64,000 nt of DNA from Methylobacterium sp. Lineage in GTDB: Bacteria; Pseudomonadota; Alphaproteobacteria; Rhizobiales; Beijerinckiaceae. The translations under genes and the position numbers were made by a program. Position 1 is the stretch's first letter. Each line of letters opens with the position of its first letter. The stretch spans positions 1 to 64,000 of the forward strand of contig PNLY01000003.1 in NCBI GenBank assembly GCA_013823325.1, written 5' to 3'. Positions 19,567 to 39,186 of the stretch are shown here, one piece after another. The notes beneath the pieces were generated by a model. It worked only from the letters and a program-made list of their open reading frames with translations. It was not told the DNA's origin and made no database searches.

Positions 19567-20553
19567 TCAGCGCGGGCAGGCGCGCGACGCTGCCGCGATC
19601 CGCAGCCATTCGACGCAACCGATCAGGGCGATGCGATCGTCGAGCAGAAGATGCGCGTCGAAATCCGCCATGAACGGCCCCATTCGGCCCTTGGCGCGGA
19701 ACGCATCGCGGAAGGTGTCGGTGGTGACGATCAAGGGGGCCAGGGCCCGGCAGACACCACCATAGAGATAGATGCCGCCATGCGGCAGGAAGGTCAGGGC
19801 GAGATCGCCGGCGACCCGTCCGAGCAGCCGCAGGAAGAGATGGGCGGCCGCGACGGCCTGCTCGTCGCTTCCTGCCACCGCGGCCGCGGCGATCTCGGCG
19901 CTCGTCTGCGCCCTGCAGGGCCGGCCGGCGCGGCCGCAGACAAAGGCATAAATCTCGCGCAGGCCATTGCCGGACAAGGCCCGCTCGACCGAGGCGCGAC
20001 CGCGGCCCGCCGCCAGCGCGGCCTGGAGCGCGCATTCCTCATCGCCCTCGATCGCCAGCGTCGTGTGGCCGCATTCAGCGGCAGCGACATGGGGAGCTCC
20101 GCCGGACGCCGGCCAATGGCAGGCGGCAGCATTGAAGCCGGTGCCGGCGCCCAGGACCATGCGGGTGGCTCGCAGTGGCGGCGGCATGGCCGATGCGAGA
20201 ACCGGCTGCGTTTCCAATCGCTCCGGCGCGATGAGCGAATATCCCAGCGCCTCGAAATCGTTCAGGAAGCCGATGAAGGGCGCGCCCGTCAGCGCCTGCA
20301 GCCCGGTTCGGGCGATCGTCCAGTCGCGGTTCGTCAGTTGCGCCCCGTCCGGCGTCGGAGCTGCTGCAAGCGCGATGCAGCAGGCATCGAGGCGCCGTTG
20401 CCCGAGCCGGTCCAGATAGGTCTCGACCACCGCCTCATAGCTGTCGAAATCGTCATTGGCGAAGCTGTCCAGGCTCGAGGCGACGAGCTGACCGTCCTCG
20501 ACGAGGCCGAGCCGCGTATTGGTGCCGCCGATATCGGAGACCAGCGCGGTCAT
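19567..20553 (-). CDS. glk: Glucokinase (ROK-independent Glk family)
   Basis: This cytosolic enzyme phosphorylates glucose at C6 with ATP. The 328-residue protein has the phosphate-1 motif DIGGTNTRLGL at the N-terminus, the catalytic-Asp segment GFLNDFEALG, the phosphate-2 loop LGAGTGFNAA and the downstream AECGHTTLA segment. These define the E. coli-type Glk family. It is the last gene of the minus-strand block that begins at 26249 with an ABC importer and two Gfo/Idh/MocA oxidoreductases. That placement suggests the imported compound yields glucose or a close analogue. Confidence 0.9.
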   Translation of the reverse strand: MTALVSDIGGTNTRLGLVEDGQLVASSLDSFANDDFDSYEAVVETYLDRLGQRRLDACCIALAAAPTPDGAQLTNRDWTIARTGLQALTGAPFIGFLNDFEALGYSLIAPERLETQPVLASAMPPPLRATRMVLGAGTGFNAAACHWPASGGAPHVAAAECGHTTLAIEGDEECALQAALAAGRGRASVERALSGNGLREIYAFVCGRAGRPCRAQTSAEIAAAAVAGSDEQAVAAAHLFLRLLGRVAGDLALTFLPHGGIYLYGGVCRALAPLIVTTDTFRDAFRAKGRMGPFMADFDAHLLLDDRIALIGCVEWLRIAAASRACPR

Positions 20554-20623
20554 CGGGTCACGCCCAATGCGCTACTGCGCTCGCCGAGCTTCTGGCTCGC
20601 CATGGCGTCGTTCGCTTCTCTGC

Positions 20624-21655
20624 TCAAGCCTTGACCGGCTCGGCCCGGCCGGAGCGCACCGAGCGATAGGCCGCGTCGATCATCGCGAAGGCCTGACGGC
20701 CATCATCGAGCGTGACCGGCATGGGTCCGCCCTCCCTGAGCGCTTTGACGAAGGCCCAGGCAACATGCTCGTGGAACACGCCGGTCTTGAAATGTGGCAC
20801 GGTCGGCGACGACGCCCAGCTCCCGCCGCCCGCGTCGCGGCGGAACACCCTCAGGAACTCGCTCTCGCGCGTCGGGCGCGAGGCGATGTCGACGCCGCCG
20901 AGCAGGATGGTGCCTTCCGTGCCGTAGATCTCGATGGAGGTGTCCGCCGCAGCGAAAGCCCAGCTCGTCGTGACCTCGGCGATCATCCCGTTTTCGTAGC
21001 GGAAGACTGCCGCGGCGGTATCCTCGACCGGCAGGCCGAAGGTATCGGACGAGGTCGTCGCATAGGCGCTCTCCGGCATCCCGAACAGCCAGTGCAGGAA
21101 ATCGGCGGCATGCACGCCCTCGTCGAGCAGGGTGCCCCCGCCCGATTGCGCGGGATCGACGAACCAGCCCTTGCGGAAATTCGGGTCGAAGCCGTGGCTG
21201 TGTCCATGACGGATGCGCACCAGCGTGATGCGCCCGACGACACCCTGGCGTAGCAGATCGGCGATCTCGTGGTTCACCGGGTCGAAGCGCTTCGGGAAGC
21301 TCTGCATGAAGCGGATGCGGGTCTCCGCGACGATGGCGGCGATGGCGTCGCATTGCGCCATGGTGGCGCCGAGCGGCTTCTCGCAGAGGACCGGCAGCCC
21401 CCTCTCGGCAGCGGCGCGGACCAGCGCCGGATGGTTCACGGTCTCCGAGCAGATCGCCACCGCATCGCTGCCGGAGAGCAGCGTCGCGAGGTCGGCGACC
21501 ACAGCGATGCCGTGCTGGCTGGCGAAAGCCTCGAGGCGCGCGGGCTCGGCATCGTAGGCGCCGGCAACCGCGACGCCCTCGCTCGCCAGGAAGGCCTTCG
21601 TCCAGAAATTGGCATGGTAATGAGCGACCCCCAGGATCGCGATCCGCAGGCTCAT
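20624..21655 (-). CDS. Gfo/Idh/MocA family oxidoreductase
   Basis: This 343-residue NAD(P)-dependent sugar or polyol dehydrogenase has an N-terminal Rossmann fold (RIAILGVAHYHANFW; the usual GxGxxG is degenerate here) and the signature LCEKPLGATMAQCD with the catalytic Lys. The C-terminal substrate domain has GGGTLLDEGVHAADFLHWL, where the expected D/H pair is visible. Its ATG overlaps the stop of the upstream oxidoreductase gene by 4 bp, so the two are translationally coupled. Family members oxidize inositols, glucosides or uronates. The atypical nucleotide loop suggests an unusual member. Confidence 0.88.
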   Translation of the reverse strand: MSLRIAILGVAHYHANFWTKAFLASEGVAVAGAYDAEPARLEAFASQHGIAVVADLATLLSGSDAVAICSETVNHPALVRAAAERGLPVLCEKPLGATMAQCDAIAAIVAETRIRFMQSFPKRFDPVNHEIADLLRQGVVGRITLVRIRHGHSHGFDPNFRKGWFVDPAQSGGGTLLDEGVHAADFLHWLFGMPESAYATTSSDTFGLPVEDTAAAVFRYENGMIAEVTTSWAFAAADTSIEIYGTEGTILLGGVDIASRPTRESEFLRVFRRDAGGGSWASSPTVPHFKTGVFHEHVAWAFVKALREGGPMPVTLDDGRQAFAMIDAAYRSVRSGRAEPVKA

Positions 21656-22716
21656 CTTCGCTCCATGGGTGCTGTGGGGGTGGCCGGCACGCGCTGCCCG
21701 GTCCGCGCCGCCTGATAGATGGCCTCGGCGATCTCGACCGAGCGCAGACCGGCCTCGGCGGTGCCGTCGGCTGGCGCGAGCCCGCGCACGACGTCGAGCC
21801 AGTGGCGGTGATGGGCCTGTCCGAGCGGCGCATCGAGCAGCGGCGGGGTGACCCAGTCCGTCTCGCCGGTCAGATCGGGGGCGAAGAGCGCGGCCGGGCC
21901 GCGTTCCGTGCGCAGGAAGACCGTGCCGGCATCGCTATAGAGTTCGAGCCGGAAGCGGTCGCAGCCGGCCCGTTCGGTATAGCTCATCTCATGGCTGGCG
22001 ATCGCGCCATCCGAAAGGCCGTAGCTCGCGGCGACGGTGTCCTCCAGTTCGGTGCGGACGGTCCGGCCATCGGCCAGCCGCCGCTCGGGCCGCGCGGTCC
22101 GTGCGCGCGCCGCGACATCATCGATCTCGCCGAAGAGATGGCGGCACAGATCGATTCCATGCACGCCGAGCTGCATCACGACGCCGCCGGAGACCTCGCC
22201 GGGCCGGAAGAACCAGTCGGCCCAGTCGGCGCCGGGCGTGGCATTGCGCAGCCGCAACGAATGAATCCTGCCGAGCCTGCCGCTCCCCAGCAGCTCGCGC
22301 AGCCAGAGCACCTCCGGGAAATAGCGATGCATGAAGCTGACGCTCAATGGCGCCGAGGCCTGGGACGCGGCCGCGAGAATGGCGCGGCACTGCGCGCTGT
22401 CGAGCGCCATCGGCTTTTGCAGCAGCACCGCCTTGCCGGCGGCGAGCGCATCGACGGCGATGCGCTCATGAGTGTTGTCGGGCGAGGCGATGACGACCGC
22501 GTCGATCGCGGGATCGTCGAGCACCGCCCGATAGTCGACCTCGACACTGGGGATACCGAGCGCGGCGGCGCGCGCTTCGGCGGCCTCGCGTCGCCGTCCG
22601 ACGAGGGCCGCGATCTCGGCTCCGCCCGCAGCGCGGAGGCCACCGACATGGTAGTCGGCGATGAAGCCCGCGCCGATCAGCGCCACGCAGACCGTGTCCG
22701 ACGAAGAGCGGCTCAT
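21652..22716 (-). CDS. Gfo/Idh/MocA family oxidoreductase with QKP in place of EKP
   Basis: This 354-residue member has a normal nucleotide motif (ALIGAGFIADYHVGGL), DAVVIASPDNTHE, and LLQKPMALDSAQC, where the family usually has EKP. The catalytic Lys is retained. The C-domain has GGVVMQLGVHGIDLCRHLFG with the Asp/His pair. ATG 22716 is preferred; upstream codons cover the gap to the receptor gene. The coupled pair of paralogous oxidoreductases could carry out an oxidation followed by a reduction, as in C3-keto-sugar routes. The substrate is not identifiable from sequence. Confidence 0.88.
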   Translation of the reverse strand: MSRSSSDTVCVALIGAGFIADYHVGGLRAAGGAEIAALVGRRREAAEARAAALGIPSVEVDYRAVLDDPAIDAVVIASPDNTHERIAVDALAAGKAVLLQKPMALDSAQCRAILAAASQASAPLSVSFMHRYFPEVLWLRELLGSGRLGRIHSLRLRNATPGADWADWFFRPGEVSGGVVMQLGVHGIDLCRHLFGEIDDVAARARTARPERRLADGRTVRTELEDTVAASYGLSDGAIASHEMSYTERAGCDRFRLELYSDAGTVFLRTERGPAALFAPDLTGETDWVTPPLLDAPLGQAHHRHWLDVVRGLAPADGTAEAGLRSVEIAEAIYQAARTGQRVPATPTAPMERR

Positions 22717-22793
22717 GATGCCTCGCGCAACGACATGGGTTCGGGAGTTGGGGAGCGCGGCGGCCTCCGGGAGAAGGCCGACCCATCCGGCGA

Positions 22794-23843
22794 TCAGGGC
22801 TTCCATCGGCCCTCGACCGCGACCAGAGCCGGATCCACCGCCTTCAGCGGAGCCGTATAGGTGTAGGTCAGCGCGTCGATGGGCTGGCCGGGGATGCGGT
22901 TGGTCGCCTTCAGGAAGCCGACGATCGCCGCCATGTCGTCGACATAGGCCTGGTCGACTTTCGAGTTGAAGCTGTAGTCGGCGAGCAGCGCCTCGTTCAT
23001 CTCGGCCGGCTGCTTCTGGACATCCGAGAAGATCTTGATCACCTCCGCCTTGTTGGCGGGATCGGCGACATAGGCCTGTGCCTTGAGCAGCACCTTGACC
23101 AAAGCGTTCGCCGCGTTCGGGTTCTTGCGCACCCAGTCCTGCGAGGCGACCCAGATCGTGCGGTTGTTGGAGACCGGGGCGGCCTCGCCCTTGTTCTTGG
23201 CGAAATAGCTGGTCGTGCCGCTATGGACGATCCTGGCGCCCTGTTCCTTGACCGCGCGGTACGGGAACGGCTCCCAGAACACCATGCCCTGGATCTCGTT
23301 GCTGGCCATGGCAGCCATCGCTTCCGGCGGGGCGAGGTTGACAGTCTTGATCTTGCTGGCATCCAGCCCATAGCGCTTGGCGACATTGTCGAGCAGCGCG
23401 CCGGAGGTCGAGCTCACCAGCAGGCCGAGCTTGACCTTGTAGAGGTCCTCCGGATTCTCGACGCCGGCATCCTTGCGGACGACGATCTTCTCCAGCCCGT
23501 GGCTGACGGCATTCGTGCCGAGGATGACCACCGGCACGCCGTTATGCGCCATCGAGACCGGCGGCAGGTTGCCGGGCGTCCAGAGCTGGATCTGGTCGGC
23601 GAGCAGCGCTTCGCCGGCGAGATTACCAGAGGCGAAGGTCTTGAACTCGACGGTCTTGAAGCCGGCCTCGGCGAACCAGCCCTTCTCCTTCGCGACGATG
23701 TGGACGAGGAAGGGCAGGTCCGGCCCGATGCTGATCGAGAGCTTGTCGGTCTCGATCTTCTGCGCCGCCGCCGGCAAGAGACCGGCCAGAGTCAGCAGCC
23801 CGGCGAGCGCCGCGCTGCGCAACTGCGTCGAAAATGCCTTCAT
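22794..23843 (-). CDS. NitT/TauT-type ABC transporter substrate-binding protein
   Basis: This 349-residue receptor has a signal peptide cleaved after about residue 27 (LAGLLPAAAQ). The body matches the SsuA/TauA/ThiY-like fold: LSISIGPDLPFLVHIVAKEK, KGWFAEAGFKTVEF, TPGNLPPVSMAHNG and NEIQGMVFWEPFPYRA. The family binds sulfonates, nitrate, pyrimidines and other anions. A GGGGAGG ribosome site precedes ATG 23843. It is encoded with two permeases and an ATPase upstream, and with two sugar-type oxidoreductases and glucokinase downstream, so the ligand may be a sugar derivative, perhaps sulfated or sulfonated (inference). Confidence 0.9.
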   Translation of the reverse strand: MKAFSTQLRSAALAGLLTLAGLLPAAAQKIETDKLSISIGPDLPFLVHIVAKEKGWFAEAGFKTVEFKTFASGNLAGEALLADQIQLWTPGNLPPVSMAHNGVPVVILGTNAVSHGLEKIVVRKDAGVENPEDLYKVKLGLLVSSTSGALLDNVAKRYGLDASKIKTVNLAPPEAMAAMASNEIQGMVFWEPFPYRAVKEQGARIVHSGTTSYFAKNKGEAAPVSNNRTIWVASQDWVRKNPNAANALVKVLLKAQAYVADPANKAEVIKIFSDVQKQPAEMNEALLADYSFNSKVDQAYVDDMAAIVGFLKATNRIPGQPIDALTYTYTAPLKAVDPALVAVEGRWKP

Positions 23844-23875
23844 TCGAACCTCCCCTTTTTGGTTTTCAGTCGCTT

Positions 23876-24649
23876 CTAGCTGCCGTGCCAGCGGCCGACC
23901 CAATGTCGGATCGCCACGCCGATGGCCGCGTCGGTCAGGAGATTGAGGGCACCGATCAAGAGGATGCCGACGATGATGACGCCGACCGATCCGCCGGCAT
24001 TGCGCTCGGCGATGATCATGTAGCCGAGGCCCCTGTCGGCCGCGATCAGCTCGGCGGCGACGAGCACGCCGAAGCTCAGGCCCCAGCCGATGCGCAGGCC
24101 TGTGGCGAGGTCGGGCGCAGCCGCGGGTATCGCGACGCGCAGCAGCAGCGGCACGCCCGAGAGGCCCATGGTCTGGCCGGCGCGCAGCAGCATCGGATCG
24201 ACGCTGCGCATGCCCTGATAGGCGGCGGTGACGACCGGGAAGAAGGCGCCGAGGAAGATGATGAAGAACTTGGAGGGCTCGCCGAGGCCGAACCAGATGA
24301 TCGCGAGCGGGATCCAGGCGAGTGGCGGGATCGGCCGCAGCAGCTCGACGAGCGGACTCACGACCAGCCCGAAGCGGCGATACCAGCCGGCGAGGACCCC
24401 GACCAAGACGCCGGCGAGCGCCCCGAGGGCAAAGCCGGAGAAGACCCGGGCCAGGCTCCAGGACAGGTTCTCGCCGAGCTGGCGCGCCGTCAGGCGTTCG
24501 CTGGCGGCGGCGATGGCGAGCGAGGGGCTCGGGAACACTGCGGGATCGATCAGCCCCGTGCGCACCGAGGTTTCCCAAAGCAGGATCACCGCCAGCGTGC
24601 CGATGAGGCCGAGTGCGAGATCGTTGCTGCGAAGTGCGGTTCCGCTCAT
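23876..24649 (-). CDS. NitT/TauT-type ABC transporter permease (first)
   Basis: This 257-residue BPD-type permease has about six transmembrane segments. It includes LRPIPPLAWIPLAIIWFGLG, the conserved ssuC/tauC segment with the FGLGEPSKFF end, and the EAA loop (RAGQTMGLSGVPLLLRVAIP). Its ATG overlaps the stop of the other permease by 4 bp. Two non-identical permeases are unusual in this subfamily, which often uses a homodimer, so this one is probably heterodimeric. Confidence 0.9.
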   Translation of the reverse strand: MSGTALRSNDLALGLIGTLAVILLWETSVRTGLIDPAVFPSPSLAIAAASERLTARQLGENLSWSLARVFSGFALGALAGVLVGVLAGWYRRFGLVVSPLVELLRPIPPLAWIPLAIIWFGLGEPSKFFIIFLGAFFPVVTAAYQGMRSVDPMLLRAGQTMGLSGVPLLLRVAIPAAAPDLATGLRIGWGLSFGVLVAAELIAADRGLGYMIIAERNAGGSVGVIIVGILLIGALNLLTDAAIGVAIRHWVGRWHGS

Positions 24650-25437
24650 CGCCGCACCTGATCGAGATTGCCGGCCCAGGGCATGAGGACGCGCTCGAGC
24701 CCGGCGAGGCCGCTGGAGATCAGGAAGCCGAGCAGGCCGATCACCAGCATGCCGACGATGGTGATCTCGCTGCGATAGAAGGTGCGCGCCTCCATGATCA
24801 GGGCGCCCAGCCCCTGGATCGTGCCGATCATCTCGGCGCCGACGATGACCATGAAGCCGACGCCGAGCGCCATGCGCGCGCCGGCGAAGATGCGCGGCAG
24901 CGCCGCCGGCAGCACGATCTCGCGATAGAGCTCCGGCCCCTGCAGCCCGCAGGAGCGCGCCGCCCGCACCAGCACGGGGTCGACATAGCGGACGCCGGCG
25001 ATGACGTTGGACAGCATCGTCCAGAAGCAGCCATAGCCGATCAGCACGACCTTGGTCAGTTCGCCCGCGCCGAACCAGACGATGACGAGCGGCAGCAGGC
25101 TCAGCGTCGCGACCGAGCGGCAGAACACGATGAGCGGGGCGCTCAGCTTGTCGAGCACCGGCAGGGCTCCGATCAGCAGGCCGAGCGGCACGGCGAGCAG
25201 GATGGCCGCGACATAGCCTTGCAGCACGCGCCAGATCGTCACGCCGGTATGGGTCCAGAGCGAAACGCCGGTCGGAAAGCCGGTGAGCGACAATTCGACG
25301 AAGCCGCGGGCGATCTTGCTCGGTGGCGGAAACTGATAGGCCTTCAGCAGGCCGTAGCCGACGGCAAGCTCCCAGGCCGCGAGCAGCACGGCGATCACCG
25401 CGAGCGAACTGGCGGCGCGGGCGAGCCGGGCGTTCAT
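24646..25437 (-). CDS. NitT/TauT-type ABC transporter permease (second)
   Basis: This 263-residue permease has RSVATLSLLPLVIVWFGAGE, the family core motif, with the EAA loop RAARSCGLQGPELYREIVLP. About six transmembrane helices are predicted by eye. It overlaps the ATPase gene by 4 bp upstream and the next permease by 4 bp downstream, so the block is tightly coupled. It would pair with the 23876-24649 product to form the channel. Confidence 0.9.
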   Translation of the reverse strand: MNARLARAASSLAVIAVLLAAWELAVGYGLLKAYQFPPPSKIARGFVELSLTGFPTGVSLWTHTGVTIWRVLQGYVAAILLAVPLGLLIGALPVLDKLSAPLIVFCRSVATLSLLPLVIVWFGAGELTKVVLIGYGCFWTMLSNVIAGVRYVDPVLVRAARSCGLQGPELYREIVLPAALPRIFAGARMALGVGFMVIVGAEMIGTIQGLGALIMEARTFYRSEITIVGMLVIGLLGFLISSGLAGLERVLMPWAGNLDQVRR

Positions 25438-26249
25438 GACGACAACTCGCTCCAGATCTCGTCGTAGAGCGCATTGAAGGCCGGCTCGGTGCGTGAGCGC
25501 GGGCGCGGCATCGGCACCTCGAAGATCCGCTGGATCCGGCCGGGATTGGGCGCGAGCAGCACGATCCGGTCCGATAGCATCAGGGCTTCGTCGATCGAAT
25601 GGGTGACGAAGACCACGGTCTTGCGCCGCGCCTGCCAGATGCGCAGCAGCTCCTGCTGCAACTCGATGCGGGTCAACTCGTCGAGGGCGCCGAAGGGCTC
25701 GTCCATCAGCAGGATCTGCGGATCGAGTGCGAGCGCGCGGGCGATCGACACACGCTGCTGCATGCCGCCCGACATCTCGCGCGGATATTTGTTCGCCGCC
25801 GCCTCCAGCCCGACCAGGCGCAGCAATTCGAGGCTGCGCTCGCGGCGCTCTTCGAGCGGCAGGCCGGCTTTGCGGAAGCCGAAGGAGACGTTGCCGAGCG
25901 CGGTGAGCCAGGGGAACAGCGCATGCTGCTGGAAGACGACGCCCTGCCCCTGGCCGGGGCCGGTCACCGGCCGCTCGCCGATCGCGATCCGGCCGGAGGT
26001 CGCGGCGTCGAGGCCGGCGATGATGTTGAGCAGCGTGGTCTTGCCGCAGCCGCTGCGACCGATCAGGGAGACGAACTCGTTCTCGGCGATGTCGAGGTCA
26101 ATACTGTCGAGGACCATGAGTTCGCCGCCCTGGCGCGCGGCGAAGGCCTTGTGCACGGCCTCGATCCGAATGAACGGCGCTCGCGTCCGACGGCCCGCCT
26201 GGGGCGTCGCGTCCGGCTCGCGCATCGAGATATCGCCGGCGCAGCTCAT
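25434..26249 (-). CDS. NitT/TauT-type ABC transporter ATP-binding protein
   Basis: This 271-residue ATPase of the SsuB/TauB group has Walker A GRSGCGKTT, Q-loop VVFQQHALFPWL, signature MSGGMQQRVSIARAL, Walker B ILLMDEPFGALDE and switch His in VTHSIDEA. ATG 26249 has GGAGGA 6 nt upstream; the GTG at 26255 overlaps that site and is less likely. It is the first gene of the minus-strand operon, transcribed away from the hybrid regulator at 26455. Confidence 0.93.
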   Translation of the reverse strand: MSCAGDISMREPDATPQAGRRTRAPFIRIEAVHKAFAARQGGELMVLDSIDLDIAENEFVSLIGRSGCGKTTLLNIIAGLDAATSGRIAIGERPVTGPGQGQGVVFQQHALFPWLTALGNVSFGFRKAGLPLEERRERSLELLRLVGLEAAANKYPREMSGGMQQRVSIARALALDPQILLMDEPFGALDELTRIELQQELLRIWQARRKTVVFVTHSIDEALMLSDRIVLLAPNPGRIQRIFEVPMPRPRSRTEPAFNALYDEIWSELSS

Positions 26250-26305
26250 CGGCACTCCTCCCCCGGTCTTCGAGCCGGCCCTCAGGTTAGGCTAATGCAA
26301 GAAGG

Positions 26306-26330
26306 CAAATTGTAAAGTGCAATTTGTATT
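26306..26330. promoter_or_regulatory. AT-rich inverted repeat, candidate operator for the hybrid regulator
   Basis: CAAATTG (26306-26312) and CAATTTG (26320-26326) are perfect arms separated by 7 bp in the divergent gap between the ABC operon and the regulator. The right part (TGCAATTTGTATT, 26318-26330) matches 11 of 13 bases of a site at 27746-27758 before the PHP-hydrolase operon. Sharing between the two flanks suggests binding by the regulator encoded between them. Confidence 0.55.
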
Positions 26331-26454
26331 TGAGCGCGTATGATGAGGCTCGGCGAGTCGAAGCCGGTATCTGCGGTTGCAGCGCGCCGGCGGCGATTGT
26401 ATGCGGCCAGGACGCTTCGGCGCCGTCGCATCGGGAGGCTGTCGAGAGGGACCC

Positions 26455-27558
26455 ATGCGCAACGGATCGGCGAACATCGTCCTGAAGACGCTCTCCGAGA
26501 TGATCGAGCGGCTCGAGGATGGCGCGCGCCTGCCCACCGTGCGGGACCTGATGAAGAAGCATCAGGTCAGCCAGGCGACCGTCCAGGAAGCGCTCGATCA
26601 CCTGAAGAGCGAAGGCCTCCTGGTCTCGCAGGTCGGGCGCGGCACCTATGTCACCCGCGGCGGCGCGGCACGGGCCGGCGAGAGCAGCCGCGAGACCGGG
26701 CTCGACAGCCTTCTCATCCTGTCGAACGCCAGCATGAACGAGCGCTGCGCTTTGGTGCAGAACTACATCGTCGAGGAGATGTCGCGGCAGGACGCCAAGG
26801 TGGTGCAGATCTCCTACCACCACACCGATCATCTGCTCGAGATCCTCAATTCGATCCCGGATTTCGATGCGGTCGTGCTGCAGTCGCATTACGAGAGCAT
26901 CCCCATCCGCCTGCTGCACCTCCTGCAGCAGAAGGCGAAGGCGCTGGTCGTCGATGGCCACACCGTCTCCGGCGTCGATATCGACCGTATCGGCACCGAT
27001 TGGGAGGATGCGCTGGAGATGGCGCTGCGCCAGCTCGTCGATCTCGGCCATCGCTCCTTCGGCCTGGTGTCGATCAACACCATGGCCCAGCCGATCCTGG
27101 CAGCACGCCGCGCCTTCGGCCGTCATGCAGCGATCGAGCGGGGCCGGTTCAGCTTCCATCCGCCGATCGTGCTGGAGCGCGTCCAGCATCCCAGCCACAG
27201 TGTGCTCGACGCCGTCGCCGACACGCTGGAGCCGCTCCTGTCCGAGGATGGCCGGCTGCCGTTCACCGCGCTGCTGACGCTCGGCATCTCCGACACGCTG
27301 GGCGTCACCCAGGGACTGCAAAGGCTCGGCATCGACTGGCCGAACGATCTGAGCGTGGTCGTGCTCGGCCATCGCGACGTCCCCAGCGAGCATCTCGGCG
27401 TCATGACGATCGCCGGCAGCTCGCAGCGCAAGGCGGCCGAGAAGCTGGTCGAGACGATCCGCCGCCGGATCGAGCAGCCGCAGCTCTCGCCGCAGATCGT
27501 CTACCTGCATTGCGACCAGGTCGTCCGGGGCAGCACGGCGCAGCCGAAGCACCTCTAA
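26455..27558 (+). CDS. GntR-headed regulator with LacI-type sugar-binding domain
   Basis: In this 367-residue protein, residues about 5-70 are a GntR-type winged helix: ERLEDGARLPTVRDLMKKHQ, then SQATVQEALDHLKSEGLLV and the wing QVGRGTYVT. Residues about 90-360 look like a periplasmic-binding-protein effector domain of LacI/GalR type (FDAVVLQSHYESIP, DLGHRSFGLVSINT, WPNDLSVVVLGHRD). This is the arrangement of AraR/RhaR-like sugar regulators. ATG 26455 follows GAGAGGGA. It sits between the ABC/Gfo/Glk operon and the PHP/sulfatase operon, and similar AT-rich sites lie on both sides, so it probably controls both arms in response to a sugar. Confidence 0.88.
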   Translation: MRNGSANIVLKTLSEMIERLEDGARLPTVRDLMKKHQVSQATVQEALDHLKSEGLLVSQVGRGTYVTRGGAARAGESSRETGLDSLLILSNASMNERCALVQNYIVEEMSRQDAKVVQISYHHTDHLLEILNSIPDFDAVVLQSHYESIPIRLLHLLQQKAKALVVDGHTVSGVDIDRIGTDWEDALEMALRQLVDLGHRSFGLVSINTMAQPILAARRAFGRHAAIERGRFSFHPPIVLERVQHPSHSVLDAVADTLEPLLSEDGRLPFTALLTLGISDTLGVTQGLQRLGIDWPNDLSVVVLGHRDVPSEHLGVMTIAGSSQRKAAEKLVETIRRRIEQPQLSPQIVYLHCDQVVRGSTAQPKHL

Positions 27559-27584
27559 GATTCGGATTGAAAACTCTGCGAACC

Positions 27585-27700
27585 CTCATCCTGAGGAGCC
27601 ATTTCGTCAGAAATGGTGTCTCGAAGGATGGCTCAGGAGGCTCCGAAACCATCTGGAGCATCCTTCGAGACGCCGCTGGCGCGGCTCCTCAGGACGAGGG
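27585..27700. repeat. Dispersed palindromic intergenic repeat, copy 1
   Basis: CCCTCATCCTGAGGAGC at the left end is complementary, with few mismatches, to GCTCCTCAGGACGAGGG at the right end. An inner TCTCGAAGGATG pairs with CATCCTTCGAGA. The same nested architecture and ends occur at 59677-59787. Such elements are common between genes in Hyphomicrobiales. It lies downstream of the regulator gene, where it could also act as a transcript-end structure. Confidence 0.75.
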
Positions 27701-27745
27701 CGGGGGCTCCAAACGGGCTCTGGCGAGATCGCGTCAGAGGTACAT

Positions 27746-27759
27746 TGCAATATATATTG
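27746..27759. promoter_or_regulatory. Palindrome before the PHP-hydrolase operon, candidate operator
   Basis: CAATATATATTG (27748-27759) is a perfect 12-bp palindrome about 50 bp before the ATG at 27810. Starting at 27746 it shares TGCAAT-n-T-n-TATT with the site at 26318-26330. It is the most AT-rich spot in the gap and may overlap the promoter. Confidence 0.5.
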
Positions 27760-27809
27760 ACCCGCGCTAGCGTGCCCACCTGAAAGATCAATAAGCGGGT
27801 GGGAACGGC

Positions 27810-29360
27810 ATGCTTGGCGAGCGCCTTCCGGAAAGGCTGTCACCTTTGGCCTCGCAGGCCGGGGTCAGGCCGTATTACGGCGATCTGCACAATCACTGCG
27901 GCATTTCCTACGGGCATGGCAGCCTCGAGCAGGCGTTGAAGCGGGCGCGCCGGCAGCTCGATTTCGTCTCGGTGACCGGTCATGCCTACTGGCCCGACAT
28001 GCCGGTCGACGACGCCAGCGTCGCCCATATCGTCGACTTCCACGTCAAGGGCTTCGCCCGGCTGGACAGGCTCTGGCCCGGGCACTTCGCCACGCTCGCC
28101 GCAGCCGACGAACCCGGCCGCTTCATCGTCTTTCCCGGCTACGAGATCCATTCCTTCGCCCATGGCGACTACACGATCGTCTATCGCGACCTGACGCAGC
28201 GCCCGATCCTCAAGGCCGACAGCCCGGCGGAGCTGAAACCGATGCTGCAGGCCGAAGCCGGTACGGGCGCCTTCGCCTTCCCGCATCATATCGGCTACCG
28301 GCTCGGCGCCCGCGGCATCAACTGGACCTCGCTCGATCCCGAGCTGTCGCCGGTGCTGGAGATCGTCTCCATGCATGGTTGCTCCGAGACCTCGATCATG
28401 GACCGGCCCTTCCTGCATTCGATGGGCCCGAGCGACGGCCATTCGACCGTGCGGCACGGGCTCGATCTCGGGCACCGCTTCGGCTTCCTGGGGAACACCG
28501 ACCACCATAGCGGCTATCCCGGCTCCTACGGGCATGGCCGTTCCGTGGTCTATGCCGGCAGCAATGATCGCGGCGCGCTCTGGGACGCGATCATGCAGCG
28601 GCGCACCGGCGCGCTGACCGGCGACAATGCCCATCTCTTCTTCACCCTCGGCGGGGCGATGCCGGGTGGCGAGGTCGAGGCGGCCGCGGATCAGACTCTT
28701 CGCCTCGAAGCCGTCGCGCCGGGCCATATCGACTATATCGACGTCATCCGGAACGGCGCGCTGGTGCGGCGCGTGGTGCCGGAGGTCGAGGCATCCCCGA
28801 TCGATGGCGACAGCGCCGGGCTGGAGACCATCGTCGTCCTGGAACTGGGCTGGGGTGCCCGCGGCAGGCAGCATCGCTGGAGCGGATCGCTGCGGGTCGA
28901 GGGCGGCGAGATTCTCTCGGTCGAACCGCGCCTGCGCGGCAACGAGGTCGTCTCGCCGCTCGAAGGCGATGCCGACGGGCAGGACGAGGACGAGGTCTTT
29001 CTCGACGGCAACCGGATCGGCTTCTCGATCACCGCCTCGTCGAACCCGAACAACCTGACGCCGGCAATGCAGGCGGTCGCAGCGCGCGTGCGGCTCGGCA
29101 GCGATGCCCGCCTCGTGCTCGACGCCAACGGCCAGCGTTTCGAGGTGACGGCGGAGCGCCTGCTCGGCGGGGCGCTTGCGGCCAATCTCGGCCCGATCGA
29201 CAGCCCCGCCTTCAGGCTCTTCCCCCTGCCCCGTCCGCATCAGTGGCAATGGCAGGGTAAGATCGCACTCGAACCGCTGCGATCAGGCGACTGGGTCTAT
29301 GTTCGGATGCGCCAGGCCAACGGCCAGTGGGCCTGGGCCAGCCCGGTCTTCTGCCGGTAA
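27810..29360 (+). CDS. PHP-type metallohydrolase, DUF3604-like
   Basis: This 516-residue cytosolic protein (no signal peptide) begins its catalytic domain with YYGDLHNHCGISYGHGSLEQ. This is the first metal-binding motif of PHP-superfamily phosphoesterases (DxHxH, D25/H27/H29). DFVSVTGHAY (H58), PGYEIHSFAHGDYT, FPHHIGYR and NTDHHSGYPG are plausible further metal ligands. The C-terminal ~200 residues are beta-rich (DYIDVIRNGALVRRV onward), as in DUF3604 proteins. The reaction is unknown; related PHP enzymes cleave phosphomonoesters or diesters. It heads an operon with a sugar importer and a sulfatase, so it may process the imported compound. An adjacent palindrome at 27748 probably controls it. 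Confidence 0.75.
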   Translation: MLGERLPERLSPLASQAGVRPYYGDLHNHCGISYGHGSLEQALKRARRQLDFVSVTGHAYWPDMPVDDASVAHIVDFHVKGFARLDRLWPGHFATLAAADEPGRFIVFPGYEIHSFAHGDYTIVYRDLTQRPILKADSPAELKPMLQAEAGTGAFAFPHHIGYRLGARGINWTSLDPELSPVLEIVSMHGCSETSIMDRPFLHSMGPSDGHSTVRHGLDLGHRFGFLGNTDHHSGYPGSYGHGRSVVYAGSNDRGALWDAIMQRRTGALTGDNAHLFFTLGGAMPGGEVEAAADQTLRLEAVAPGHIDYIDVIRNGALVRRVVPEVEASPIDGDSAGLETIVVLELGWGARGRQHRWSGSLRVEGGEILSVEPRLRGNEVVSPLEGDADGQDEDEVFLDGNRIGFSITASSNPNNLTPAMQAVAARVRLGSDARLVLDANGQRFEVTAERLLGGALAANLGPIDSPAFRLFPLPRPHQWQWQGKIALEPLRSGDWVYVRMRQANGQWAWASPVFCR

Positions 29361-29431
29361 GAACACGGGATGTCGGAAAGCCGTTAAGCTGACGGCCGAC
29401 CAGCGTGGAACGGTTTCGCAGGGAGGATGAC

Positions 29432-30790: not shown

Positions 30791-30816
30791 CGTCCGGGCG
30801 GCGAGGAGGACGGAGC

Positions 30817-31746
30817 ATGGCAGGAGTTGCGGCAAAGGGCGATGCACGGGGCATCGCCGGACAGACGGAGAGTGCCGACCAGCGTCTCTGGCGCTGGCTG
30901 ACACTCGCACCTGCTCTGGTGATGCTGCTGGCGCTCAGCATCATCCCGCTCGTCGGGCTCGTCCTCACCAGTTTCCAGAACGTCGCCTGGGCCGAGGGCC
31001 GGGCGGTGCGTAGCTGGGCCGGGCTCGACCACTACCGGGCCCTGTTCAGCGATGCGCTGTTCGGCGCCGGCCTCTGGAACACCGGCTTGTTCGCGCTCGG
31101 GGCGGTGACCGGGCAGATGCTGCTCGGCTTTTCGCTGGCGCTGCTGGTCAGCAAGGTCAGCCGGGCGCGCGTGCTCTATCGGACGATCTTCATTCTGCCG
31201 ATCCTGATCCCCGGCATCGTCATCGGCGCGATCTGGAAGCTGATGCTCAATTTCGATTTCGGGCTGGCGAACCAGATCCTCGGCCTCGTCGGGCTCGGGC
31301 CGGTCGACTGGCTCGGCGATGGCCGGATCGCGCTGCTCTCGGTCATCATGGTCGATATCTGGCACTGGACGCCGTTCTGCTTCCTGCTCTTCCTGGCCGG
31401 GCTGGAATCGCTGCCGCAGGACGTCTACGAGGCCACCAAGATCGATGGCGCCAATGCCTGGCAGGAGCTGCTCTATGTCACCCTGCCGCTGATGGTGCCG
31501 ACCATCGTCGTCACCTTCGCCTTCCGCCTCGTCCTCGCCTTCAAAGTCTTCGACGAGGTCTATCTGCTGACCAAGGGCGGGCCGGGCACGGCGACGGAAG
31601 TCATCAGCTTCACGCTCTACCAGCGCTTCTTCACCGAGGACAAGGCAGGCTACGGCTCGGCGATGTCGGTGACGGTGATCTTCCTGGTCTGCCTGCTACT
31701 GGTGGTGGCGCTGTCGGCGCGCCGACGCTCGGAGGGCCGGGCATGA
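30817..31746 (+). CDS. Sugar ABC transporter permease (MalF/UgpA type)
   Basis: This 309-residue permease has six hydrophobic segments. The first is WLTLAPALVMLLALSIIPL at about residues 27-45. The EAA loop LPQDVYEATKIDGANAWQEL is the CUT1-family signature. ATG 30817 has GGAG just upstream. A GTG at 30787 overlapping the receptor stop is possible but leaves a long hydrophilic tail. It pairs with the MalG-type permease that overlaps it by 4 bp. Confidence 0.92.
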   Translation: MAGVAAKGDARGIAGQTESADQRLWRWLTLAPALVMLLALSIIPLVGLVLTSFQNVAWAEGRAVRSWAGLDHYRALFSDALFGAGLWNTGLFALGAVTGQMLLGFSLALLVSKVSRARVLYRTIFILPILIPGIVIGAIWKLMLNFDFGLANQILGLVGLGPVDWLGDGRIALLSVIMVDIWHWTPFCFLLFLAGLESLPQDVYEATKIDGANAWQELLYVTLPLMVPTIVVTFAFRLVLAFKVFDEVYLLTKGGPGTATEVISFTLYQRFFTEDKAGYGSAMSVTVIFLVCLLLVVALSARRRSEGRA

Positions 31747-32576
31747 GCGGCCGGTCGGGCGCTCCCTCGGGCTGGCCGATCCACGTCGCCCTCCTCGTCA
31801 GCGCGGCGATCGTGCTGGTGCCGGTGATCTGGACGGTCGCCGCCGGCTTCCGCACCCAGATCTCGCTGCTGATGGGCGAGGTCGCCTTCTCGCCGGTGCT
31901 CTTCAATTTCCACGAGGTGCTGTTCTCCAAGACCTCGGAATTCCTGGTCAACTACCGCAACTCGATCATCGTCGGCGTGGCGAGCACCGTGCTCTGCGTC
32001 GGCGCGGCGACGCTTGCCGCCTTCTCGCTCAACCGCACGCTCTGGCGCCGCTGGGTCGTGCAGGTTTTCCTGGCTTGGACGCTGGTCTTCCACATGATCC
32101 CGCCGGTCGCGCTCGCCAGCGCCTGGTTCACCATGCTGCGCACCGTCGGCCTGGAGAACAGCTTCACCGGCCTGATCCTGGCGCATGCGACCCTCAATCT
32201 GCCGATGGCGATCTGGCTGATGAGCGTCTTCGTGCGCGAGGTGCCGAAGGAACTGGAAGAGGCCGCGCTGATGGATGGCGCGACCACGCCCGTCCTGCTC
32301 TGGAACGTCGTGCTGCCGGTGATCGCGCCGGGCCTCGCCGCGACATCGGTCCTGACCTTCGTCTTCTCCTGGAACGAGTTCGCGGTCTCGCTGGCGCTGA
32401 CGATGAAGCAGACCGCGACCGTCCCCGTCGCGATCGCCAAGTTCGCCCAGGAATTCGAGATCCAGTACACCCAGATGGCGGCCAGCGCCGGCCTCGCCAT
32501 GCTGCCGGCCCTGATCGTGATGCTCTTCGCCCAACGCTACATCGTCAAAGGCCTGACCCAGGGCGCCGTGAAATAG
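31743..32576 (+). CDS. Sugar ABC transporter permease (MalG/UgpE type)
   Basis: This 277-residue permease has six transmembrane segments and the EAA loop VPKELEEAALMDGATTPVLL, typical of CUT1 MalG-type partners. It is translationally coupled to the MalF-type gene by an ATGA overlap. No ATPase gene follows, so the importer must borrow a shared MsmK/UgpC-like ATPase encoded elsewhere. The NitT-type ATPase at 25434 belongs to a different subfamily and is an unlikely partner. Confidence 0.92.
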   Translation: MSGRSGAPSGWPIHVALLVSAAIVLVPVIWTVAAGFRTQISLLMGEVAFSPVLFNFHEVLFSKTSEFLVNYRNSIIVGVASTVLCVGAATLAAFSLNRTLWRRWVVQVFLAWTLVFHMIPPVALASAWFTMLRTVGLENSFTGLILAHATLNLPMAIWLMSVFVREVPKELEEAALMDGATTPVLLWNVVLPVIAPGLAATSVLTFVFSWNEFAVSLALTMKQTATVPVAIAKFAQEFEIQYTQMAASAGLAMLPALIVMLFAQRYIVKGLTQGAVK

Positions 32577-32608
32577 CGCCTGGAGCGGGACCGAGCCGGG
32601 AGACCATT

Positions 32609-34135
32609 GTGAAGGCCGTATTCGTCCTCTTCGATTCGCTGAACCGCCACATGCTCGGCTGCTATGGCGGCACGCGCGTGCCGACGCCGAATTTCGACAG
32701 GCTGGCGCGCCGGTCGGTGAGCTTCGACCAGCACTATGTCGGCAGCCTCCCCTGCATGCCGGCGCGGCGCGACATGCTGACCGGGCGGCTGACCTTCCTG
32801 CATCGCAGCTGGGGGCCGCTCGAACCCTTCGACAACGCCTTCCCGGAGATCCTGCACAGGGAAACCGGGACCTACAGCCACCTGATCACCGACCACTTCC
32901 ATTATTGGGAGGATGGCGGCGCGACCTACCACAACCGCTACGATTCCTACGAGTTCGTGCGCGGACAGGAAGGCGACCGCTGGAAGGCGATGGTCCAGCC
33001 GCATTGGGAGCGGCTGCGCGAGAAATACCATGCGCGCCAGTTCAGCGACGCCCGCCGCAGCTATTTCGGCCAGAACATCATCAACCGCGAGTTCATCAAG
33101 GCGGAGGAGGACTTCCCCTCGGTACGCTGCTTCGCCGAGGGCTTCGACTTCCTCGAGCGCAACAAGGACGCCGACAACTGGCTGCTGCAGATCGAGACCT
33201 TCGACCCGCACGAGCCCTTCACCGCCCCGGCCCGCTTCAAGGAAGCCTTCGACACCGGCTGGAACGGCCCGATCCGCGACTGGCCGCGCTATGGCCGCGT
33301 CGACGAATTGCCGGCGGAATGCGAGGAGCTGCGCGCCAACTACTACGCCGTCGTGGCGATGTGCGACGACTTGCTCGGCCAGCTCCTCGACTGGTTCGAC
33401 GCCAACGAGATGTGGAAGGACACCGCCCTCGTCGTCACCACCGACCACGGCTTCCTGCTCGGCGAGCATGATTTCTGGGCTAAGAACCGGATGAACCTCT
33501 ATGAGGAGGTCGCCCATATCCCGCTTTTCCTGCACGATCCCCGCCATCCCGAGCGCGCCGGTACGCGCTCGCAGGCGCTGACCCAGTCGATCGACCTCGC
33601 GCCGACCTTCCTCGATTTGTTCGGCGCCACGCCGCCGGCCGAGAACGAGGGCATCTCGCTCTGCCGCATGGCGGATGGCGCCGCGCCGCGCGACGGCGTC
33701 CTGTTCGGCTATTTCGGCGGAGCGGTGAACGTCGCCGACGGGCGCTACACCTATCACCGCTTCCCGGAGGACCTGTCGAAGCAGGAACTCTACCAGTACA
33801 CGCTGATGCCGACGCACATCTTCTCGCCCTTCTCGACCGAGGAGTTGGCCGGCACGACCATCTCGCCGCCGCTCGGCTTTACCAAGGGCGCGAACCTGCT
33901 GAAGGTGCCGGTGATCGAGCGCTCGCCGATGTACAACAACTACGGCCCCGGAGCGCTGTTGGAGTCCGAGACGCGCCTCTACGACCTCGCGACAGATCCA
34001 GGACAGGAAGCGCCTCTGAGCGACGCAGCGGTCGAGGGGCGGCTCGCCGCGCTGATGCGGCGCCTCATGACGGAAAACGGCGCGCCGCCTGAGGCCTTCG
34101 CCCGCATCGACCTCGACCCGAGCGCGGCCGGCTGA
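32609..34135 (+). CDS. Type I sulfatase (alkaline phosphatase superfamily), cytoplasmic
   Basis: This 508-residue protein starts at a GTG with GGGAG 7 nt before it. The core begins at once with KAVFVLFDSLNRH (metal Asp), so no signal peptide is present and the enzyme is cytosolic. C49 in PCMPARRDMLTG fits the CxPxR sulfatase motif, in which Cys is converted to formylglycine by an FGE-type enzyme. TTDHGFLLGEHDFW supplies the second metal site. The family hydrolyses sulfate esters; some relatives act on phosphonate mono- or phosphodiesters. It lies in the operon after the sugar importer, which suggests intracellular desulfation of the imported compound. The maturation enzyme is not in this window. 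Confidence 0.9.
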   Translation: MKAVFVLFDSLNRHMLGCYGGTRVPTPNFDRLARRSVSFDQHYVGSLPCMPARRDMLTGRLTFLHRSWGPLEPFDNAFPEILHRETGTYSHLITDHFHYWEDGGATYHNRYDSYEFVRGQEGDRWKAMVQPHWERLREKYHARQFSDARRSYFGQNIINREFIKAEEDFPSVRCFAEGFDFLERNKDADNWLLQIETFDPHEPFTAPARFKEAFDTGWNGPIRDWPRYGRVDELPAECEELRANYYAVVAMCDDLLGQLLDWFDANEMWKDTALVVTTDHGFLLGEHDFWAKNRMNLYEEVAHIPLFLHDPRHPERAGTRSQALTQSIDLAPTFLDLFGATPPAENEGISLCRMADGAAPRDGVLFGYFGGAVNVADGRYTYHRFPEDLSKQELYQYTLMPTHIFSPFSTEELAGTTISPPLGFTKGANLLKVPVIERSPMYNNYGPGALLESETRLYDLATDPGQEAPLSDAAVEGRLAALMRRLMTENGAPPEAFARIDLDPSAAG

Positions 34136-34137
34136 CG

Positions 34138-35064
34138 ATGCGCAAACCGGCGACCTTCCCGCGCCATCTCGCTGCCGATCCCCGGCAGTTCGCCAGCGTG
34201 CGCCGTATCATCCTGGCCGAAGGACAAGAGGCCGGCATCGAGACGCTGGCCTTCTCGACCGGGGGCGGGCTCGATTTCTGGGTGACCGTCGGCCGGCTGA
34301 TGGACATCGCGACCCTGTCCTGGCGCGGCGTCCAGCTCGGCTGGCAGAGCCCCGCCGGCCTGCGCCGGCCCGATACCGGGCCGGCCGACCGCGAGCGCCG
34401 CTTCAGCAATGCCTTCGGCGGCTTCCTCAACACCACCGGCTTCGACCATATCCGCCAGCCGGCCGACGGGCGGCCCCTGCACGGCTCGGCTCCGTTCACG
34501 CCGGCGCGGCTCATCGCCTATGGCGAGGATTGGGACGCCGCCGTGCCGATGCTGTTCTGCGAGGGCGAGGCGATCTGCTGGGCCCATGGCGGCCTCGGCT
34601 ATCGCCTGCATCGTCGGATCGAGGCGCCGATCGGCGGCAATTCGCTCAGCCTTCGCGACCGCGTCACGGTGATCGGCGCCGAGCCCGCCCCGATCATGGC
34701 GCTCTACCATTTTAATCTCGGCTATCCGATGATCGAGGGCAGCACGATCGAACTCGACGGCGAGCGCCTGGCCGGGCCGCTGTCCGCGCCTGAGCACGCG
34801 ATGGTGCCGGCCTCCTTGCACCCCGCGACCAGCGCGCAGGCGAGCTGCAGCGTGCATGGCAAGGCTGCGACCGTCGCCTTTCACTGGAACACCGTAGAAC
34901 TGCCCTGGCTGCAGCTCTGGCGCGATTTGCGGGCGGGCGCCGGCGTGATGTCGATCGAACCCTGCTCGATCGGGCGCTGCGACGACGGACGTAATGCTCC
35001 CTCACCCCTGCTCGAGCCGGGCAGCAGCCGCGTCTTCGCCATCGACGTCGATGTGGCCGACTGA
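34138..35064 (+). CDS. DUF4432 aldose-1-epimerase-like protein
   Basis: This 308-residue beta-rich protein starts 2 bp after the sulfatase stop. Features include AGIETLAFSTGGGLDFWVTVGR near the N-terminus (broken here by GGG), FGGFLNTTGFDHIR, HGSAPFTPARLIAYGEDW, and YHFNLGYPMIEGST. These are typical of the DUF4432 branch of the galactose-mutarotase-like fold. Such proteins are often encoded in sugar-use operons, where they presumably bind or epimerize a sugar. It has no signal peptide and is the last gene of the PHP/importer/sulfatase operon. Confidence 0.8.
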   Translation: MRKPATFPRHLAADPRQFASVRRIILAEGQEAGIETLAFSTGGGLDFWVTVGRLMDIATLSWRGVQLGWQSPAGLRRPDTGPADRERRFSNAFGGFLNTTGFDHIRQPADGRPLHGSAPFTPARLIAYGEDWDAAVPMLFCEGEAICWAHGGLGYRLHRRIEAPIGGNSLSLRDRVTVIGAEPAPIMALYHFNLGYPMIEGSTIELDGERLAGPLSAPEHAMVPASLHPATSAQASCSVHGKAATVAFHWNTVELPWLQLWRDLRAGAGVMSIEPCSIGRCDDGRNAPSPLLEPGSSRVFAIDVDVAD

Positions 35065-35078
35065 GAGGGGCGGCGAAA

Positions 35079-36551: not shown

Positions 36552-36623
36552 GGCTCGAAGATAAGCGCAACAAGCCACACCGCAACACGAAGCGAGACCA
36601 GCGAGCCGCCCGGCGGCCTATGC

Positions 36624-38180: not shown

Positions 38181-38190
38181 CGTCCTGCCC

Positions 38191-39186
38191 TCAGTTCGCC
38201 TTGGCGCCGGAGATGCGGACGAGCTCCGCGATCTTGCCGGCCTCGGCCTTGATGAAATCGCCGAAGGCGGCCGGCGTGCCGCCGACCAGATCGATGTTGA
38301 GTGCCGCCATGCGCTCGCGCACCGCAGGGTCGGCGACGACCTTGTTGAGCTCGGCATTGAGCCGCCCGACGATCGCCGCAGGCGTCTTCGCCGGCACGAA
38401 GAGTCCGTGCCAGGAGGCGAACTCGTAGCCTGGCGCGCCCGCCTCGGCGATGGTAGGCACATCCGGCAGGGCGGCCGAGCGCTTCGGCCCGGTGACGCCG
38501 AGCGCCCGCAGCGCGCCCTCGCGTGCCATCGGCACGGCGGTACCGTCGATCATCGCCGTGACATGGCCGGCGACGAGGTCGTTGATCGCGGGAGCCGACC
38601 CACGATAGGGCACATGCGTGCCCAGCATCCCGGTCTTCGCCTTCAGCAGCTCGAAGGCGAGATGCTGCGGCGTGCCGAGGCCGGCCGAGGCATAGGTCAG
38701 CTTGTCCGGATTGGCCTTGCCGAAGGCGATGAGTTCGGCGAGGTCCTTGGCCGGCCCCTTGGGATTGACCACCAGCAGCAGCGAGACCGAGGTCAGCCGG
38801 ATCACCGGCGTGAAATCCTCCATCGGCCGGTAGGAGAGCTTGTCCTGCAGCGCCGGGTTGATGGCGTGGGTGGCGATGTCGCCGATCAGCAGCGTGTGGC
38901 CGTCAGGCTCGGCATGGGCGGCGTCGGCGGTCCCGATCGCGCCGGCCGCGCCGGGCTTGTTGTCGATCACAACCGGCTGGCCGAGCGCCTCGCTGAGCTT
39001 GGGGCCGATCAGCCGCCCGAGCAGGTCGACATTGCCGCCGGCCGGATAGGGCACGACGATCCGGATCGGCTTGCTCGGCCAGGGCGCCTGCGCTGCCGCC
39101 GGCACGGCCCAAAGCCCGGCCGTCGCCGCAAGCACGGCAAGCAGCATGCTGCGCCTCGAGCCGTCTGCACCATCCCGACCGGTCAT
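38191..39186 (-). CDS. Tripartite tricarboxylate transporter (Bug) receptor
   Basis: This 331-residue periplasmic receptor has a signal peptide (residues 1-33, with a twin Arg at SRRSMLLAV, cleaved after AAA). Family motifs are PIRIVVPYPAGGNVDLLGR, VIDNKPGAAGAIGT, ATHAINPAL and VPYRGSAPAINDLVAGHV. Bug receptors bind carboxylates, sometimes with no cognate TctA/B nearby, as here. GGGAGGA precedes ATG 39186. It is divergent from the broken LysR gene at 39305, the usual regulator arrangement, and cotranscribed with the second sulfatase. This could mean the sulfatase substrate carries a carboxylate such as a uronate (inference). Confidence 0.9.
   Translation of the reverse strand: MTGRDGADGSRRSMLLAVLAATAGLWAVPAAAQAPWPSKPIRIVVPYPAGGNVDLLGRLIGPKLSEALGQPVVIDNKPGAAGAIGTADAAHAEPDGHTLLIGDIATHAINPALQDKLSYRPMEDFTPVIRLTSVSLLLVVNPKGPAKDLAELIAFGKANPDKLTYASAGLGTPQHLAFELLKAKTGMLGTHVPYRGSAPAINDLVAGHVTAMIDGTAVPMAREGALRALGVTGPKRSAALPDVPTIAEAGAPGYEFASWHGLFVPAKTPAAIVGRLNAELNKVVADPAVRERMAALNIDLVGGTPAAFGDFIKAEAGKIAELVRISGAKAN

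Follow-up and report, generated by a model that had tools for sequence, protein, structure and literature searches.

What is encoded by a divergent gene cluster that assembles two importers, a sulfatase and a putative metalloenzyme around a single regulator? The cluster lies at positions 19567-35064 of a 64,000-nucleotide stretch of Methylobacterium sp. (contig PNLY01000003.1, assembly GCA_013823325.1; the whole stretch is hereafter the window) and is built around one regulator that joins a GntR DNA-binding domain to a Peripla_BP_3 domain; it is conserved, its extent resting on Pfam and NCBIfam scans and on the loci of relatives. A first-pass annotation, made from the letters alone, had seen here an undescribed sugar-sulfate-type cluster with two importers and one regulator, a view upheld by gene content and conservation, and the Pfam and NCBIfam scans agree with the genes that it named in both arms (Table 1). 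No description of this gene set was found in the open-licence PubMed Central literature, as judged by titles and the beginnings of abstracts. The locus is very probably a conserved, co-regulated cluster; that it is a fused two-module catabolic regulon with the pathway proposed below, taken as a whole, is a plausible but doubtful account.

Two modules, together and apart

Module A consists of a NitT/TauT-type importer, two Gfo/Idh oxidoreductases, a glucokinase, the regulator and a PHP-fold protein (hereafter PHP), with a NagB-II-like deaminase in some relatives. Module B consists of a sugar ABC importer, a formylglycine (FGly)-type sulfatase (Sulf1), predicted to be cytosolic, and a DUF4432 protein; elsewhere it is found beside a LysR gene and an ATPase.

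Forty named loci around PHP homologs were scored with our own hidden Markov models, weak matches (L045-L052) being excluded from the counts (L and G numbers designate loci and genomes). Both arms surround PHP in nine of the 40 (L001, L002, L003, L007, L012, L013, L015, L018 and L020; in L002 and L012 a contig end cuts inside the sulfatase), drawn from several genera, and also in the same-genus genomes G013 and G023. Conserved co-occurrence across genomes, which the first-pass annotation had set as its own test, was thus found; within the 40 named loci the fused cluster is confined to Alphaproteobacteria. Three loci have the NitT arm but lack Sulf1 (L004, L005 and L008; in the L008 genome a Sulf1 ortholog (75%) lies about 15 kb off on the same contig), four have the sulfatase arm but lack the NitT importer (L006, L009, L010, L011), and in four more PHP is accompanied by a single Gfo and a sugar importer of a different kind (L014, L016, L017, L019). 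The other 20 loci are distant, and nine of these hold a sulfatase. The arrangement with the different sugar importer, also seen in L094-L097, has a regulator-like gene (none seen in L016), one Gfo/Idh, PHP and an ATPase with the importer; its sulfatases are a weak edge match in L094 alone and one in L019 that is not Sulf1.

A screen of 397 genomes of the order approached the linkage from another side. PHP was found in 14 of them (E 1e-60) and the NitT binding protein (E 1e-100) in four, all PHP-positive, with the two genes 2-4 kb apart; the overlap is 4/4 with our own genome and 3/3 without it, against PHP in 13/396 (p 2.8e-5). Sulf1, at E 1e-200, is present in 14/397, five of them shared with PHP (without our own genome, four shared of 13 and 13; p 4e-4). 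Since PHP orthologs of at least 85% identity occur in 4/101 genomes, own included, the cluster is patchy inside the genus.

Module B also stands alone. Eleven fetched Sulf1 neighbourhoods (L082-L091, L099) hold the sugar importer and the sulfatase with no PHP in the stretch, PHP lying elsewhere in the genomes of L088-L091; DUF4432 adjoins in 8/11 and an ATPase is present in 8/11, and the regulator gene adjoining the sugar importer was of LysR type in all eight cases tested. These stand-alone copies, together with L072, share a GS[LM]PCMPARRD-type sulfatase and a sugar importer, usually with DUF4432 and ATPase and occasionally with a formylglycine-generating enzyme (FGE) or a second sulfatase. 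As modules A and B exist separately, a fusion is the best reading of the window, one in which B is without an adjoining LysR regulator or ATPase. The same separateness, with LysR genes beside B in 8/8, would fit two arms that serve unrelated substrates and were fused by chance, sharing one divergent promoter. We regard such an accident as improbable: both arms stand together in several genera, B adjoins PHP in several different arrangements (L006, L009, L010, L011, L012), and in loci with the shared GntR/LacI regulator no LysR gene was observed next to B. The first-pass proposal of one pathway for one sulfated compound gains from the fusion in several genera, but the arms also live apart, which makes it one reading among several.

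Table 1. Features of the cluster, in window coordinates
Feature	Position	Strand	Basis
Glucokinase-family kinase, module A	19567..20553	-	PF02685, 238 bits; NCBIfam glucokinase models all under cut-off; orthologs in module A of relatives
GfoA, Gfo/Idh/MocA oxidoreductase, module A	20624..21655	-	PF01408/PF22725; 57-72% identity in the L001-L020 loci outside Bosea that hold GfoA
GfoB, Gfo/Idh/MocA oxidoreductase, module A	21652..22716	-	PF01408/PF22725; start picked by reading
NitT/TauT-type solute-binding protein (NMT1)	22794..23843	-	PF13379/PF09084; SsuA family 106 bits, cut-off 163.5; signal peptide by reading
NitT-type importer ABC permease	23876..24649	-	PF00528; start picked by reading
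NitT-type importer ABC permease	24646..25437	-	PF00528
NitT-type importer ABC ATPase	25434..26255	-	PF00005; NtrCD/SaoA/TauB-like, under cut-offs
Candidate operator 1, CAAATTG-N7-CAATTTG inverted repeat	26306..26326	.	divergent promoter
Regulator, GntR DNA-binding and Peripla_BP_3 (LacI-type sensor)	26455..27558	+	PF00392 and PF13377
Candidate operator 2, CAATATATATTG palindrome	27748..27759	.	upstream of PHP gene; near-palindrome CAATACATATTG in relatives
PHP-fold metalloenzyme (predicted), C-terminal beta-sandwich part, CehA/McbA-like outlier	27810..29360	+	
Sugar-type solute-binding protein (SBP_bac_1), module B	29432..30790	+	PF01547; Tat-like signal by reading
Sugar ABC permease 1, module B	30787..31746	+	PF00528
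Sugar ABC permease 2, module B	31743..32576	+	PF00528
Sulf1, FGly-type sulfatase with CMPAR, module B	32609..34135	+	PF00884, 138 bits; no signal visible
DUF4432, aldose-1-epimerase-like protein, module B	34138..35064	+	PF14486, 139 bits; 3ty1 'hypothetical aldose 1-epimerase' 30 bits

The regulator and two conserved inverted repeats

The regulator is 51-70% identical in relatives outside Bosea and 29-30% in L014, L017 and L019. When the divergent intergenic region was aligned across 15 sources (L069 being the L007 region again), the 24-mer CAAATTGTAAAGTGCAATTTGTAT, which holds CAAATTG-N7-CAATTTG, proved unchanged in the window and in L001, L007, L013, L015, L018, L020 and L064, that is, in eight distinct sources from at least four genera; it recurs with one or two changes in L067 and L002, and in L003, L004, L005, L008 and L012 the region carries merely a ATTGTAAAG- or TGTAAAG-like core. 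Searched against the 6.0 Mb genome with up to three mismatches allowed, the 24-mer has a single match (0 in the control). A second element, CAATAYATATTG, often within TACAATACATATTGTA, was found in 10 of 23 scanned sources (either form, always upstream of PHP) and in none of 100 shuffles of the window. Half-sites of the ATTGTA/TACAAT type are common to both candidate operators, those of the second being weaker in its Bosea form. These two conserved inverted repeats, with their similar half-sites, support common control of both arms in this lineage, as the first-pass annotation had suggested from the letters, and the regulator would be the protein that pairs with them. Loci L006 and L009-L011 have no regulator gene of the window type, and other sequences lie there upstream of module B; in L010 a LysR gene occupies this place. 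A scan for promoters and terminators gave output no higher than in shuffles.

A palindromic repeat of about 110 bp, with ends CCTCATCCTGAGGAGC, is also present between the regulator and PHP genes (window 27584-27699) and again at 59678-59786; the first copy is predicted to fold as a branched hairpin (z -6.8). The end motif has 67 matches in the genome (35 + 32) at up to one mismatch, against 0 in the control, many of them in facing pairs about 95 bp apart. The repeat is not at that place in L007 or L064.

A predicted PHP metalloenzyme among sulfatase and sugar genes

Sulf1 has the features of an FGly type I sulfatase and is predicted to act on sulfate esters: it matches PF00884, carries the C-x-P-x-R motif, and the genome encodes one FGE-family protein (PF03781, 184 bits). 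Residues D9, C49, P51, R53, D279, H280 and K292 are invariant in 15 aligned sequences. No close relative was found among solved structures (best 104 bits), and the predicted structure is poor (mean pLDDT 59.7, pTM 0.68). The closest solved relatives of the sugar binding protein are maltose- and trehalose/maltose-binding proteins (103 and 99 bits), and an ATPase follows Sulf1 or DUF4432 in six relatives (L001, L003, L013, L015, L018, L020), that of L001, the sole one typed, being of MalK type by Pfam. The substrate of module B is probably a sulfated sugar or glycoside. GlcNAc-6-sulfate and N-sulfoglucosamine, hinted at by the NagB-II-like and kinase genes, are not claimed, Sulf1 being without a close solved relative. 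By reading, PHP, the sulfatase, DUF4432, the Gfo proteins and the glucokinase have no signal peptide and both binding proteins have one, in line with the earlier statement that the hydrolases are unsignalled; a hydropathy check, however, separates the two groups poorly, as GfoB (2.59, a peak that by reading is its Rossmann strand) exceeds one of the binding proteins, that of the NitT importer (2.23), and the sugar-type one, with its Tat-like signal, reaches only 1.02. Among the cluster proteins of the window, Pfam detects no glycoside hydrolase family.

In module A, an NMT1-type binding protein, BPD permeases and an ATPase identify a NitT/TauT ABC importer, with no named-substrate equivalog above cut-off. 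The 45 solved relatives of GfoB (up to 91 bits) include glucose-fructose oxidoreductase, 6a3f and DgpA. A SIS gene lies between GfoA and the kinase in L004, L005, L007, L015 and L067; the proteins of two of these relatives were scored against the NagB-II glucosamine-6-phosphate deaminase model NF046059 and reached 272 (L007) and 263 bits (L005), under its cut-off of 430, and the closest solved chains to the L007 protein are phosphosugar isomerases and a glucosamine-6-phosphate deaminase. A weaker NagB-II-like SIS gene adjoins a ROK protein in L093. Such genes beside a kinase point to a hexose or hexosamine product.

PHP itself is assigned by its predicted fold together with conserved metal-ligand-type residues. 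The Pfam scan returned no family at E 0.001, and the first-pass name, DUF3604 (PF12228), has been given up; the genome is also without a PF12228 match, a weak point alone since control genomes were silent too. Neither the sequence nor its profile matched a solved structure at E 0.01 or 1, and the closest named relative is from Bosea sp. Root483D1 (92%). The sole family match is to the CehA/McbA model NF038032 (67.7 bits over residues 22-325, below the curated cut-off of 80). PHP may therefore be an ordinary hydrolase of esters, carbamates or amides in the CehA/McbA manner, which would remove an acyl, carbamoyl or similar group, with the sulfatase taking off the sulfate and oxidation of the resulting bare (amino) sugar or cyclitol left to the Gfo enzymes. 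We hold this somewhat unlikely, although CehA is named as an oxamyl and a carbaryl hydrolase in the literature, the best-scoring model for both Gfo proteins is an inositol dehydrogenase (130 and 132 bits, against a cut-off of 355), and a kinase with a NagB-II-like deaminase would suit free hexosamine: the family score is below its cut-off, and a hydrolase that simply removes a side group, while compatible with the recurrent nearness of PHP to Gfo/Idh genes (22/40 loci), does not explain it. The closest fold neighbours of the predicted structure, predicted phosphoesterases and PsfC, raise the further prospect that PHP is a phosphoesterase and that, along with a sulfate ester, a sugar phosphate or phosphodiester is processed by the cluster; the best NCBIfam match of Sulf1, the phosphoric/sulfuric ester hydrolase PehA, points the same way (130 bits, far below the cut-off of 900), but Sulf1 keeps the FGly motif and the neighbours are sugar importers and Gfo/Idh enzymes, and we consider this improbable as well.

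The company that PHP keeps extends beyond the fused cluster. A sulfatase gene is present in 24/40 PHP loci, a count that includes L008 and L019, whose sulfatases are not Sulf1 orthologs; in the 35 loci with genome counts (L002, L012, L024, L026 and L035 being left out) the figure is 21 against 1.5 expected, and outside Alphaproteobacteria 8/17 against 0.98 expected (p 7e-7). The calculation assumes uniform placement and takes related genomes as independent, which makes its p values too small. The 11 of the 20 distant loci in which no sulfatase was found (L021-L027, L030, L031, L036, L038) count as misses in all totals. Gfo/Idh genes lie within 100 bases of PHP in nine of the 22 loci that have them, chance expectation having been computed for sulfatases, not for Gfo. 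In Pseudarthrobacter the only sulfatase match (E 1e-10) in 4.8 Mb is the gene before PHP; next to this sulfatase lie sugar importer genes, an FGE gene and, by reading, a LacI-like gene. In the Spirochaete loci L029 and L032 the order is importer, Gfo, Gfo, PHP, sulfatase; in L037 it is NMT1-type importer, histidine kinase, PHP, two sulfatases and a phosphoglucose-isomerase-like gene, one of these sulfatases being of the CMPAR type and 44-47% identical to Sulf1.

The likeness of the Gfo/Idh pair and metal enzyme to oxidation-assisted glycoside cleavage is one of logic only. In an Agrobacterium operon, C3 oxidation, a Mn-dependent barrel enzyme acting on 3-keto-glycosides and a Gfo reductase for the released sugar bring about glycoside cleavage (PMC10628242), and DUF1080 hydrolases are a known family that cleaves 3-keto-glycosides (PMC9007349). 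We propose that the sugar ABC transporter of module B would import a sulfated sugar or glycoside intact, that Sulf1, activated by the formylglycine-generating-type enzyme of the genome, would strip the sulfate in the cytosol, and that DUF4432 probably equilibrates anomers. The NitT-type transporter of module A would import a second, smaller compound, perhaps an unsulfated or aglycone-linked form, and both modules would feed a common core: one Gfo/Idh may oxidise the sugar, the PHP metalloenzyme may break the remaining bond (glycosidic, if the reaction is like known 3-keto-glycoside cleavage, and possibly via a 3-keto intermediate), and the other Gfo/Idh may restore the released sugar. The glucokinase, in some relatives with the NagB-II-like glucosamine-6-phosphate deaminase, would then send hexose or hexosamine into glycolysis, and the GntR/LacI-type regulator would sense a sugar and act at two operators. 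The cleavage chemistry, with PHP in the role of the 3-keto-glycoside cleaving enzyme, is the most tentative part and, taken singly, rather unlikely. More speculative still is the idea that PHP founds a new metal-dependent class that cleaves oxidised (3-keto) glycosides and has its place between a Gfo/Idh pair and a cytosolic sulfatase, in a cross-phylum sulfated-glycoside route without a classical glycoside hydrolase.

Several observations weigh against the fused regulon and its pathway. PHP enzymes of known function cleave phosphate or carbamate esters and are not known to act on glycosides. No Gfo gene was found in 18/40 PHP loci, including L006, L009 and L011, and no sulfatase in 16/40; the neighbours in L021, L022 and L025 are not sugar-related, and a GH88 glycoside hydrolase lies near PHP in L039. 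The NagB-II-like gene is in neither the window's copy of the cluster nor that of G013, a higher-scoring one lying elsewhere in the genome. Both of the ABC importers named at first pass are present, but no ATPase gene adjoins the sugar importer in the window. At E 1e-100, Sulf1 gave no match in the two Nitratireductor genomes with the NitT/PHP arm (L004, L005) or in that of L014, and 9/14 Sulf1 genomes of the order survey have no PHP match at E 1e-60; therefore, neither arm needs the other.

If the proposal is correct, sulfated sugars are handled by an undescribed route common to soil and marine bacteria: desulfation and dismantling take place inside the cell, so that searches for exported sulfatases and glycoside hydrolases would overlook it. 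Catabolic clusters of importers and sulfatases are already known; what this one possibly holds is a new enzyme activity. The locus also provides gene context, and hence testable substrates, for a PHP subfamily that spans Alphaproteobacteria to Spirochaetes and has no Pfam family or solved-sequence match.

Right-hand neighbours and known systems

To the right of the cluster lies a SelO-type protein adenylyltransferase (window 35079-36578; PF02696, 387 bits), followed by a second, arylsulfatase-like sulfatase (36624-38180; PRK13759, 391 bits, cut-off 481) and a TctC/Bug receptor (38191-39186), which form a separate small candidate unit. The first-pass annotation had counted this sulfatase and the Bug receptor in the regulon. 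They are excluded here, as is SelO, because no ortholog of any of the three turned up in 26 loci or stretches of the cluster (L001-L020, L064-L069): SelO and Bug gave no match at E 1e-8, and the second sulfatase reached at most 32% identity.

Like sulfoquinovose pathways (sulfo-SMO and others), the cluster would use a sugar ABC importer for a sulfur-bearing sugar, and the module B binding protein is weakly similar to SmoF (41 bits); it differs in having a sulfate ester sulfatase rather than sulfonate chemistry, and no monooxygenase or sulfoquinovosidase family is found among its proteins. Choline-O-sulfate (bet) operons combine import of an intact sulfate ester with a cytosolic FGly sulfatase (PMC5870055), as is proposed here, but the choline-sulfatase model gives Sulf1 109 bits (cut-off 433) and the partners of Sulf1 are sugar genes. 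The CehA/McbA carbaryl hydrolases have in common with PHP the metallohydrolase match, from which PHP departs by its score (67.7 of 80 bits) and its context of sugar and sulfatase genes. From the 3-keto-glycoside operons (AtOGE of Agrobacterium tumefaciens, PUE C-glycoside, levoglucosan) the cluster is set apart by its PHP enzyme, sulfatase and pair of importers; its Pfam results include Gfo/Idh and no sugar phosphate isomerase/epimerase-type lyase or DUF1080. Those operons place oxidoreductases, including a Gfo reductase, beside a metal-dependent barrel enzyme and pass the released sugar on to glycolysis (PMC10628242), as the cluster would.

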